Both the position numbers and the translations under genes were made by a program. From Sedimentisphaerales bacterium (GTDB lineage: Bacteria; Planctomycetota; Phycisphaerae; Sedimentisphaerales; Anaerobacaceae): a stretch of 64,000 nt of DNA. Location of the stretch: NCBI GenBank assembly GCA_016936075.1, contig JAFGPS010000134.1, positions 1 to 64,000 of the forward strand, written 5' to 3'. The notes beneath the pieces are model-generated. The model did not search any database. It was not told where the DNA came from and saw nothing but the letters and a program-made list of their open reading frames with translations. Below are positions 30,167-34,525 of the stretch, piece by piece. Position 1 is the stretch's first letter; every line of letters begins with the position of its first letter.

Positions 30167-30409
30167 TCATCCGGAAAGTTTGTTCTGGGTATCAATATAA
30201 TCATCTATTTCGGAAATCAGTTGCCATGTTTTTTTCGCTTCTTCTTCATCTACCTGAGAAATTGCGAAGCCCGCGTGAACTAAAACTAAATCACCTAACT
30301 TGACGTTCGGCAAAAGCGTAGTCTTCGCTTTGAACCGATTGCCCATCGCATCGACAACCGCTTTATCACCTTCCAATTCAATTATTCTTGCTGGTATTGC
30401 TAAACACAT
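30167..30409 (-). CDS. hypC: HypC/HybG/HupF family hydrogenase chaperone
   Basis: MCLAIPARIIELEGDKAVVDAMG...GDLVLVHAGFAIS. Confidence 0.95.
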   Translation of the reverse strand: MCLAIPARIIELEGDKAVVDAMGNRFKAKTTLLPNVKLGDLVLVHAGFAISQVDEEEAKKTWQLISEIDDYIDTQNKLSG

Positions 30410-30423
30410 AATTCGTATCTCGT

Positions 30424-30445
30424 ATCTCGTGGCTCGTAACTCGTC
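30424..30445 (+). repeat. Inverted-repeat arm (left) flanking the four-helix-bundle ORF
   Basis: ATCTCGTGGCTCGTAACTCGTC; matches reverse complement of 30874-30895 at 19/22. Confidence 0.85.
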
Positions 30446-30797
30446 ACAGTTTCTTTATAAGGCTCATAAGCATACGGCTTTCGTGGTTAATGTCTTTTGC
30501 TAAATCCTGTAATTTATTTTCAGTTATATAATTTCTTCTTCTTGATAATATCAATTGTGTATCTAATTCTGCGCATGAACCCAACGCAATATATAAAAAC
30601 TGTCTATATTCTTTACTATGGTTTCTGACAAATCCTTCTGCAATATTCGAAGAGATTGATACAGAAGCTCTTCTCATTTGCCCAACTAAACCAAATAGTT
30701 CTGATTTAGGGAAATTTTCTGTGATTGCATATATTTCATCAGCAATCTCAATTCCCTTTTGCCATATATTCAATTCTTTGTAATCTTTGACAGTCAA
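30444..30797 (-). CDS. Four helix bundle protein, 23S rRNA intervening-sequence (S23) family
   Basis: YKELNIWQKGIEIADEIYAITENFPKSELFGLVGQMRRASVSISSNIAEGFVRNHSKEYRQFLYIALGSCAELDTQLILSRR is the classic family signature. Confidence 0.93.
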   Translation of the reverse strand: MTVKDYKELNIWQKGIEIADEIYAITENFPKSELFGLVGQMRRASVSISSNIAEGFVRNHSKEYRQFLYIALGSCAELDTQLILSRRRNYITENKLQDLAKDINHESRMLMSLIKKL

Positions 30798-30835
30798 AAT
30801 CTTATCTTAATTAAAATTTCCAATATCGAGCTACT

Positions 30836-30895
30836 AGCGACTAACGACCAGCGACAAGATACGAGCGACTAACGACGAGTAACGAGCGACGAAAT
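30836..30895 (-). repeat. Short-repeat block containing the right inverted-repeat arm (30874-30895) and overlapping hypF 3' end
   Basis: AGCGACTAACGAC at 30836-30848 and 30864-30876; arm GACGAGTAACGAGCGACGAAAT. Confidence 0.85.
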
Positions 30896-33247
30896 CGCTG
30901 CTTGTCCAATGGATATTCCCCCATCGTTTGAAGGAACTATCCTGTTAAATAATACGTTAAATTCATTTTTCTTCAAGAGCTTTATCGTTTTGCTCAATAA
31001 ATAACGATTACAGAACACGCCGCCGCTTAGGGCTGCTGTATTGATATTTGTGCTTTTTCTCGCTTGTATAGCCATTTCTACCAAAGATTGAGCGAGGGTA
31101 TTATGAAATTTGGCTGAAATTATTCCTTTGTCGATATTTTGTTCTAAATCCGATACTATGCCTTGAATTGCTGGGCCAATATCAAAAATTTGTATTTCAT
31201 CAATGAGATTAATTGAAAAATTATACTGCTCTTCGATATTTTCAGAAGCAATCGCTTCCAGTGCGATAGGTAATTGTGCATCGAAATGATTGTAGTTTCC
31301 GATACCGAGCATAGCAGCAACCGCATCGAATACTCTTCCTATGCTCGATGTTTCTATGCAATTTACACCTTTTTCAATCTGTTCGAGGATGATTTGCTTT
31401 TTTACAATATCATTTTCGATTTTGTTGAGAAGCCAGTCGAATTTCTCTAACGAAAAATCATCGCCGTATGCTTTTTTTAATAACGACAATACAGGTCTTA
31501 TCGCTTCCTTGCTTGCCTTGTTCGCGCCTGCCAACTCATAGTATGCTAAATGGCCGAAACGCTCGAAATTTTCCAAAGAGGCTATGAGACACTCACAACC
31601 CCAGATTTTTCCATCTGAGCCGTATCCTGTGCCGTCACAGACTAAACCTATAACAGGTTCACTGATATTATTTTCCGCCAATACAGAAGCAACGTGTGCC
31701 CAGTGGTGTTGTACTTGTATTATATGTGGCATGGCCTTGTGGCATGGCCATCCTGGCCATGTATTCATGGGCTGGAAGCCCATGACACCTTGCTCATGAT
31801 ACATTTGTGCATATTGTGTTGACATGTAACCCGGATGTAAATCACAAACAACAACTTCCGGCTGAACCTTGAACAGTTTCGCTAAATGCTCAATAGAATT
31901 TATGTAATGATGATAAACTTCCGCATCTTCCAAATCGCCTATATGTTCGCTGCAAATCAGTTGATTACCTTTAGCGAAACAGAAAGTATTTTTCAAATCA
32001 GCACCGGCCGCGAGAATGTCCTTCTCACAATTGTTTTTAGTAATTATAGGAGTCGGAACATATCCTCTCGACCTGCGAATCAAAACAGGCTCATCTTCAA
32101 TTATATGAACTACCGAATCATCTACCTGTCTGTATATTTCTCTATCGTGCATCAAAAAAGCGTCTGCAACATCACTTAGCTTTTCCAAAGCATATTCTTT
32201 TTTGCAAATCAGCGGCTCATCTGAAATATTGCCGCTTGTCATTACAAGCACATCAATTCCATGAGCAAATAGCAGAAAATGCAGCGGCGTATAACACAAC
32301 ATAAAACCGAATGTAGATGTTCCTTCAGCAGCATCTTGAGCGATTAAATTGGCTTTGTTTTTTGGTAATAAAACAATAGGGCTTTGAGGACTTTGCAAAA
32401 TCTTCTCTGCTGTATCATCGACAATCGCATATTGTTTTATCTTATCAATTGAATCCGTCATTAATGCAAATGGTTTATGGTCGCGTTTCTTGCGTTCTCT
32501 AAGCCGCTTCACTGCGTTGTTATTCAGAGCATCTACGGCTAAATGAAATCCGCCAAGCCCTTTTATCGCGACAATTTTTCCATCCAAAAGCATCTTAGCG
32601 GCTTGCTCTATCGCTAATTGGGTTTGTTTTTCAATTTTCCGGCCGGTATTATCTGTAAGCCATACTTTCGGCCCGCAAGTCGCACAAGCTACAGGCTGCG
32701 CATGAAAACGCCTGTCCGTCACATCCTTGTATTGTGCGGCACATTTATCGCACATTTCAAAAACCGACATTGTCGTATTCGGCCTGTCATAAGGAATATT
32801 TTTGATAATCGAATATCGCGGCCCGCAATTTGTGCAATTGATAAATGGATAACCAAACCGAAAATCATCCTTATCGCGCATTTCAGAAAGACAATCCTTA
32901 CAAGTAGCTGTATCAGCCGTGACATGTGAAACAGGAACTCCATTGGAATCGCTTGTTTGGATAGTGAATTCTTTTTCATTTTCAACAAGCTCAATCTCAC
33001 TAATTTTAAGAGTTTCTATATGAGCCAGCGGCGGCTTATATTGCTCGGAGTTAAGTTTTAATACGAACAGGGATATTTTATTCTCCTGTCCCTGTAATTC
33101 GATAGTTACGCCGCTCGTATCGTTATAGATAAAACCCGTAAGACCAAGCTCGGTCGCGATTCTATATACGGCAGGGCGAAACCCAACTCCCTGAACTCGT
33201 CCCGTTATTAATATTTTCTGCCTTTTAATCAATATATAATTTCTCAA
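30869..33247 (-). CDS. hypF: Carbamoyltransferase HypF
   Basis: Acylphosphatase GRVQGVGFRPAVYRIA; zinc fingers CKDCLSEM/CTNCGPRYS; QHHWAHVASVLAEN; GGISIGQA near C-terminus. Confidence 0.96.
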   Translation of the reverse strand: MRNYILIKRQKILITGRVQGVGFRPAVYRIATELGLTGFIYNDTSGVTIELQGQENKISLFVLKLNSEQYKPPLAHIETLKISEIELVENEKEFTIQTSDSNGVPVSHVTADTATCKDCLSEMRDKDDFRFGYPFINCTNCGPRYSIIKNIPYDRPNTTMSVFEMCDKCAAQYKDVTDRRFHAQPVACATCGPKVWLTDNTGRKIEKQTQLAIEQAAKMLLDGKIVAIKGLGGFHLAVDALNNNAVKRLRERKKRDHKPFALMTDSIDKIKQYAIVDDTAEKILQSPQSPIVLLPKNKANLIAQDAAEGTSTFGFMLCYTPLHFLLFAHGIDVLVMTSGNISDEPLICKKEYALEKLSDVADAFLMHDREIYRQVDDSVVHIIEDEPVLIRRSRGYVPTPIITKNNCEKDILAAGADLKNTFCFAKGNQLICSEHIGDLEDAEVYHHYINSIEHLAKLFKVQPEVVVCDLHPGYMSTQYAQMYHEQGVMGFQPMNTWPGWPCHKAMPHIIQVQHHWAHVASVLAENNISEPVIGLVCDGTGYGSDGKIWGCECLIASLENFERFGHLAYYELAGANKASKEAIRPVLSLLKKAYGDDFSLEKFDWLLNKIENDIVKKQIILEQIEKGVNCIETSSIGRVFDAVAAMLGIGNYNHFDAQLPIALEAIASENIEEQYNFSINLIDEIQIFDIGPAIQGIVSDLEQNIDKGIISAKFHNTLAQSLVEMAIQARKSTNINTAALSGGVFCNRYLLSKTIKLLKKNEFNVLFNRIVPSNDGGISIGQAAISSLVTRR
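31743..31785 (-). repeat. Double palindromic repeat inserted within hypF coding sequence
   Basis: CATGGCCA-TCC-TGGCCATG (31743-31761) and TCATGGGCT-GGA-AGCCCATGA (31765-31785), perfect hairpins. Confidence 0.88.
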
Positions 33248-33355: not shown

Positions 33356-34525
33356 TTATTTCGCAAGGTGAGCGATTGCCTGTTCGTTACCCGCGGATGC
33401 GGCTTTTTTGAGCCAGTAATTTGCCATGCGTTTATTTTTCACAACTCCTTCGCCATCCTGATAAGCTAACGCGAGAAAATATTGAGCTTCACTATCCGAT
33501 TCCTGAGCGGCAAGTTTTAGCCAGTAAACCGCTTTTTTATAGTTTTTGCGTGTGCCGTTACCATTGTGATAACAAATTCCAAGATACATTTGCGCTTTAG
33601 TATCTCCTCTTTCAGCCGCGCTTTTAAATAATTTAAATGCTTTTTTATAATCTTTTTTGACATTATGACCATGCCAATACATATACCCAAGATAAGCCTG
33701 TGAAAATGCATCGCCCAGGCTCGCTGCTTTTTCAAATAATTCGAGGGCTTTTTTTACATTTTTCTTCGTTCCTTTTTCATATAGATAAGCTCCCGCAAGA
33801 GCGCTTAGTCCTTTAAGACAGTTCTTTTCTGCTGAAAGACGAGCATATTTGAAGCCTTTCTTGGTATCTTTTTTTACTCCTTCTCCGTCGAAATAACACA
33901 TAGCCAATAGTGCCTGTGCGCTTGCGTTTCCGGCTATAGCCGCTTTTTCCAACCAGTGTGCTGCGGTTCGTTTATTTTGTTTTATTCCATAGCCATATTT
34001 ATATGACTCGCCCAATCTAAGCTGAGATTTGGTATGTCCATGTTTTGCGGCTTGTCTGAATCAGTAAGAAGCGAGTTCTAAGTTTTGTTTTATACCGCGG
34101 CCTGATTGATAAGAATCCCCAAGCATATATTGAGCTCCGCGATGTCCTCCTTTGGCCGATTTTTTAAACCATTCGTTTGCCTTTCGAAAGTCCATTGGAA
34201 TTTCTTCGAATCCAAATATGTAAGCCATCGCTATATTGAATTGAGCATATTCATTTCCTGAGCGTGACGCTTTCTTGAACCATTTGAAAGCTGTTTTAAT
34301 ATTTGCTTTCGTTCCCTCACCCCATAAATAAATGATACCGAGAAACAACTGGGCGTTATCATGTCCCTGTTCCGCGGCCAAATGAAACCACTTTATAGCG
34401 TTTTTATAATTTTGTTTTAAAGATTCGCCTTCGTAATATTGATGACCAAGAAGGAATTGTGATTCGGGATCACCTTGTTGTGCATTCTCTTGCAGCTTTT
34501 CTAAATAAGATTTGCGTTGTGACAT
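33356..34525 (-). pseudogene. Sel1-like repeat (SEL1/TPR) protein gene interrupted by one in-frame TGA (halves 34061-34525 and 33356-34015)
   Basis: Same frame reads ...LELASY*FRQAAKHGHTKSQLRLGESYKYGYGIKQNKRTAAHW...; the TGA at 34061-34063 occupies a conserved Trp position. Confidence 0.8.

Follow-up and report, generated by a model that had tools for sequence, protein, structure and literature searches.

An S23 gene with heptamer-repeat arms between hypF and hypC as a probable insertable cassette resembling rRNA intervening sequences

Proteins of the S23 family are encoded within intervening sequences (IVSs) of 23S rRNA genes in Coxiella, Leptospira, and other bacteria, elements that have complementary ends and are excised by RNase III (PMC4990558). 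In the Coxiella 23S IVS, tandem GACAGAT heptamers lie just upstream of the S23 ORF, with one fewer unit in some strains (PMC4990558). Complementary 7-nt motifs also form a hairpin in the P6b region of the Nostoc tRNA-Leu (UAA) intron, where whole units are gained or lost and wholesale replacement occurs (PMC4476775), and arrays of the 7-nt unit TAACTGA occupy intergenic positions just before start codons in Beggiatoaceae (PMC4679880). At the protein level, the Avd/bAvd accessory proteins are four-helix bundles homologous to S23 (PMC10053308).

The element described here shares with S23-encoding rRNA IVSs the protein family, a length of about 430–490 nt, and complementary ends, but it lies between protein-coding genes rather than in an rRNA helix, and its arms are a locus-specific repeat array. 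Its complementary heptamer repeats build a hairpin as those of Nostoc P6b do; the latter, however, reside within a group I intron, comprise only two motif classes, and contain no ORF. The Beggiatoaceae arrays, in contrast, are direct repeats of one sequence, and S23 is unmentioned in PMC4679880. Unlike in the Avd/bAvd systems, no reverse transcriptase or template repeat was seen adjoining the S23 gene studied here. REP and REPIN elements with RAYT transposases offer a further likeness, being short dispersed hairpins that sometimes lack an ORF. Each genome family of them has a single consensus, however, they enclose neither an S23 nor a GxxExxY gene, and they show no heptamer period; no common REP consensus was found across the S23 arms, which differ between loci. 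To our knowledge, the abundant S23 proteins have so far lacked a clear function beyond rRNA IVSs. In the open-access literature searched, no paper linking non-rRNA S23 genes with heptamer arms was found, nor any report of the GxxExxY parallel described below.

The window is the whole 64,000-nt stretch analysed, from a Sedimentisphaerales bacterium (contig JAFGPS010000134.1). In it, hypF, the S23 ORF, and hypC all lie on the minus strand, arranged as follows in order of transcription:

30869–33247, minus strand: hypF, upstream host gene (TIGR00143), with its C-terminal tail SSLVTRR encoded by the 5' arm
30828–30895, minus strand: 5' arm, a degenerate heptamer array of CTCGTNN type on the transcribed strand, overlapping the last codons and stop of hypF
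30444–30797, minus strand: S23/four-helix-bundle ORF, TTG start, 117 aa (PF05635, TIGR02436)
30411–30445, minus strand: 3' arm, a heptamer array of ACGAGNN type on the transcribed strand, directly adjoining the start codon of hypC and sharing 2 nt with the S23 stop
30167–30409, minus strand: hypC, downstream host gene (PF01455)

The sequence-only reading had placed a four-helix-bundle ORF of S23 type between hypF and hypC, and profile searches agree, identifying a full-length S23 protein (PF05635, E=1e-39, 135 bits against a cut-off of 33.8; TIGR02436, the S23 23S-rRNA IVS protein, 8e-38) from a family with solved structures (2gsc, 2rld). Weak matches (PF22296, NF033474) additionally relate it to Avd of diversity-generating retroelements. 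The inverted arms that had been described are likewise present, ATCTCGTGGCTCGTAACTCGTC at 30424–30445 and GACGAGTAACGAGCGACGAAAT at 30874–30895, complementary at 19 of 22 positions, as is their overlap with coding sequence: the S23 stop codon (30444–30446) takes in the final 2 nt of one arm, and the other encodes C-terminal residues of HypF, whose stop codon lies at 30869–30871. Both 22-nt arms are parts of longer degenerate 7-nt arrays (about 30411–30445 and 30828–30895). Their best pairing score, 16, was reached by 22 of 20,000 block-shuffled flanks, so that the pairing in the window is by itself moderately significant, and the strong evidence is instead the recurrence of this architecture around many other S23 genes. 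Two other features of this region were observed. HypF carries an inserted peptide, MGFQPMNTWPGWPCHKAMPH (31724–31792, residues about 486–508), which recurs elsewhere in the same genome (C150, C119, and C106) as a dispersed repeat in coding sequence with no relation to the heptamers, and Sel1-like repeat ORFs, apparently one split in two, lie upstream of the hyp operon (33356–34525).

The window's genome contains about nine PF05635 genes, and by inspection seven of them, the window copy included, have inverted short-repeat arms. The arm letters differ per locus (for example, GACTTAA, CAGAATA, AAATCTC, GATGATG, CACAAAG, and ATCAAAA), and several copies sit at operon junctions, namely between a prfA-like gene and its neighbour, def-fmt, asd-truA, leuC-leuD, and an aconitase-like gene and its neighbour (names assigned by eye from translations). 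Other armed S23 loci therefore exist in this genome, as they do elsewhere, but nothing near-identical to the window element occurs a second time in the genome; no recent transposition was caught, nor was a target-site duplication made out.

This architecture was surveyed in 113 S23 genes with enough flanking sequence, drawn non-randomly from the best-scoring family matches in the window's genome, its relatives, and several other phyla. The arm score was defined as the best complementarity between the 110 nt upstream and the 110 nt downstream of the gene, with scores of at least 16 considered strong. Such scores were found at 65% of the 113 loci. The figure was 0% when the flanks were displaced by 400 nt, 2.3% when arms of separate loci were paired, and 0.1% after shuffling. 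Independence of the loci is incomplete, as 39 of the 3240 pairs formed by 81 armed loci have homologous flanks. At a threshold of 14, arms were present at 62 of 93 planctomycete-side loci and at 22 of 27 loci from a wider genome collection (Omnitrophota, Patescibacteria, Deltaproteobacteria, Bacteroidota, Nitrospira, and others). Carriers of armed copies that are in culture include Epilithonimonas and Nitrospira moscoviensis. Identity within S23 flanks rises to 0.36, 0.35, and 0.33 at lags of 7, 14, and 21 nt, against about 0.27 at other lags, whereas offset flanks show a weak codon period and nothing else periodic. Strong arms within 110 nt are absent at about 30% of S23 genes, some of which have extra ORFs or misplaced starts, while others may be real exceptions. 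The heptamer is locus-specific, and the two arms of one locus match each other; a single universal repeat sequence was rejected, since the letters change from locus to locus. Location within rRNA was rejected as well, because the window copy lies between hypF and hypC and an Rfam scan of 12 further S23 loci found rRNA in none. Among armed loci in different gene contexts (defined solely by the absence of flank similarity in tblastx), mean arm similarity was 0.54 for S23 proteins at least 65% identical (42% of pairs above 0.6) and at the background level of 0.22 for distant pairs. Close S23 proteins in different contexts thus share arm sequence, and arms and ORF appear to travel together.

Orthologous junctions provide a second line of comparison. 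The hypF-hypC gap measures 11–43 nt in many relatives that lack the element, whereas an S23 element occupies it in four others (L053, L055, L058, and L063) and, by inspection, in two more (L041 and L115); three (L060, L064, and L082) have ORF-less repeat hairpins at this position, and L057 carries other cargo or sequence between repeat remnants. Nucleotidyltransferase/HEPN-like gene pairs were noticed by eye downstream of hypF in L057 and L054, and L055 has a further S23 gene after hypC, preceded by a repeat of different sequence. In two genera, an extra ORF of ~145 aa (LWERKSS...) intervenes between the 5' arm and S23 (L055, 2539–3046; L058, 3888–4332, in reverse complement); Pfam and PADLOC returned no match for it, and hence no defence-system or Pfam identity. 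The S23 gene and the same arm type are common to five or more genera at the hyp junction, so that this copy may be old and vertically inherited. The hyp-locus S23 ORF is under purifying selection, with pN/pS of 0.11–0.26 among orthologues, values for which synonymous sites are largely saturated. Between genomes G002 and G017, S23 is 84% identical in nucleotides, compared with 68–75% for hypF and hypC, but identity is no higher than 75% in the adjoining extra ORF, and recent lateral homing at this junction was set aside as suggestive only.

The leuC-leuD junction presents a varied picture, with empty sites of 15–33 nt (L261, L265, L266, L268, L270, and L273), arms from which the ORF has been deleted (L262 and L269), and occupied states comprising two S23 subtypes as well as GxxExxY (PDDEXK_3) ORFs with longer-unit arms. 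Its S23 copy is decayed in G001 and intact but of another subtype in G000, a genome of the same genus. Occupied and empty orthologous sites are therefore present at both hypF-hypC and leuC-leuD. A de novo scan of 1.18 Mb from three genomes found 7 nt to be the commonest short tandem period in two of them; in the third it ranked next after 10 nt. Heptamer arrays in inverted pairs were located around S23 genes and also as ORF-less hairpins, and one pair surrounds a 299-codon ORF with no Pfam match in the part searched. Solo ACGAGNN arrays of about 28–42 nt were also observed inside ORFs of apparently housekeeping genes (L002, L013, L014, L015, L018, and L022), including kdsB-like, valS-like, and selD-like genes and others, where they are read as TSHERRATS-like peptides.

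A parallel class was encountered in genes for GxxExxY proteins. Among 63 such loci with flanks, 56% have inverted arms at a score of at least 14, against 0% at offsets. Of the GxxExxY loci, 25 have a best repeat unit of 9 or 10 nt, two have 8, and none has 7, whereas for S23 it is 7, 8, or 14 in 55 loci and 9 in four (Fisher p = 2e-15 for unit length against ORF family). The two distributions indicate that unit length follows the encoded protein family.

Across these loci, the architecture is conserved, the arms are locus-specific and mutually complementary, arm sequence follows S23 lineage, orthologous junctions occur in occupied, empty, and ORF-less states, and the hyp-locus gene is under purifying selection. 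It is probable, at roughly 0.7, that 30411–30895 represents one copy of a small insertable cassette in which an S23 ORF lies between inverted arms of degenerate 7-nt repeats, and an IVS-like insertable hairpin cassette outside rRNA is the best reading of the window element. The sequence-only reading had already proposed an IVS-type S23 element outside rRNA; empty junctions in many relatives, with others occupied or bearing an ORF-less hairpin, armed copies in the same genome and elsewhere, and arms that follow S23 lineage across contexts all agree with it, neither of the outcomes that it had named as refuting was observed, and the phenomenon extends more broadly than had been suggested. Such cassettes would enter short gaps between the stop and start codons of co-oriented genes, with arms and ORF presumably moving together, and would work like a 23S rRNA IVS set between mRNA cistrons, transcribed by read-through from the host operon. 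Loss of the ORF would leave a repeat hairpin, and the S23 product may recognise or help copy the hairpin of its own repeats. It would be mainly processes at the DNA level (hairpin-templated copying and slippage in whole-unit steps), and not selection for mRNA folding, that maintain arm complementarity. The element encodes no known DNA-moving enzyme; it may move via a reverse transcriptase or a Y1 transposase, either route being possible given the genome's single RVT_1 match and its 11 Y1_Tnp matches. A weak match to a REP-associated type of Y1 transposase, one of these 11, lies on the window's contig (15209–15571, plus strand). Separately, a Y1_Tnp match was seen within a 1268-residue open frame (G000:C51:2767–2964), on a contig that also carries a valS-like gene with a heptamer array.

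On the model of the sequence-only reading, the arms might pair in the polycistronic hyp transcript and RNase III might cut the stem, removing the S23 segment and leaving the mRNA split or re-joined. In its favour, RNase III excises the S23-encoding IVSs of 23S rRNA (PMC4990558). Folding gives some encouragement: compared with shuffled sequences, the sense strand of the element in the window folds better (z=-3.5), the antisense strand less so (z=-1.3). Nearly all elements are also in sense orientation, S23 being co-oriented with tandem neighbours at 100 of 104 loci, which agrees with transcription of the element but exceeds only slightly the 0.85–0.90 seen for ordinary operon genes; with that baseline, the bias counts mainly against a randomly oriented transposon, and it was downgraded as proof of RNA mobility. 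If sense-strand RNA helices were under selection, G-U should exceed A-C among arm mismatches, but there was no significant excess at 101 S23 loci (141 vs 121) or with GxxExxY loci combined (183 vs 152, p=0.10), unlike in tRNA acceptor stems of the same genomes (6 vs 0, a small sample). This asymmetry test was thus negative for pairing selection at the RNA level, though a small effect may exist. Moreover, IVS excision proceeds without re-ligation and would sever hypF from hypC in the mRNA, and an mRNA-level IVS is considered unlikely.

The lack of a strand-specific RNA signal would suit a REPIN-like DNA hairpin that carries S23 as cargo and is mobilised by Y1/HUH (REP-associated) transposases of the host acting in trans, for which the Y1_Tnp matches and the ORF-less hairpins could also be invoked. 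However, REPs follow one consensus per transposase and these arms are wholly different between loci, while the dependence of unit length on ORF family points to the ORF rather than to a trans factor, which makes this explanation quite improbable. Most doubtful is an ordinary operonic gene, in which S23 would be a stable accessory gene and the arms intergenic repeats generated by slippage and unrelated to mobility. The spread of the hyp-locus copy over several genera under purifying selection and the heptamer arrays found alone inside coding genes would suit it, but inverted pairing occurs at most loci and not at offsets, and the leuC-leuD junction is empty in some genomes and filled in others by GxxExxY cassettes or by S23 of differing subtypes.

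The insertable cassette may in turn belong to a broader class of protein-coding hairpin elements. In this tentative proposal, which we favour less, each protein (S23, or GxxExxY of the PDDEXK family) would set the unit length of its own arms (7 or 9–10 nt), build or copy them, and spread between operon junctions, with rRNA IVSs as the rRNA-inserted members. The evidence points to the S23 cassette as an insertable element that is widespread, has been poorly described, and prefers the spaces between adjacent genes, and possibly to a new class of elements. Most sampled S23 genes lie at the centre of cassettes with repeat arms at operon junctions, a setting that these common orphan genes have in common. 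Together with the GxxExxY class and its different unit length, the cassettes suggest a testable nucleic-acid substrate for the products of these genes, namely their own arms, and a possible origin of rRNA intervening sequences.
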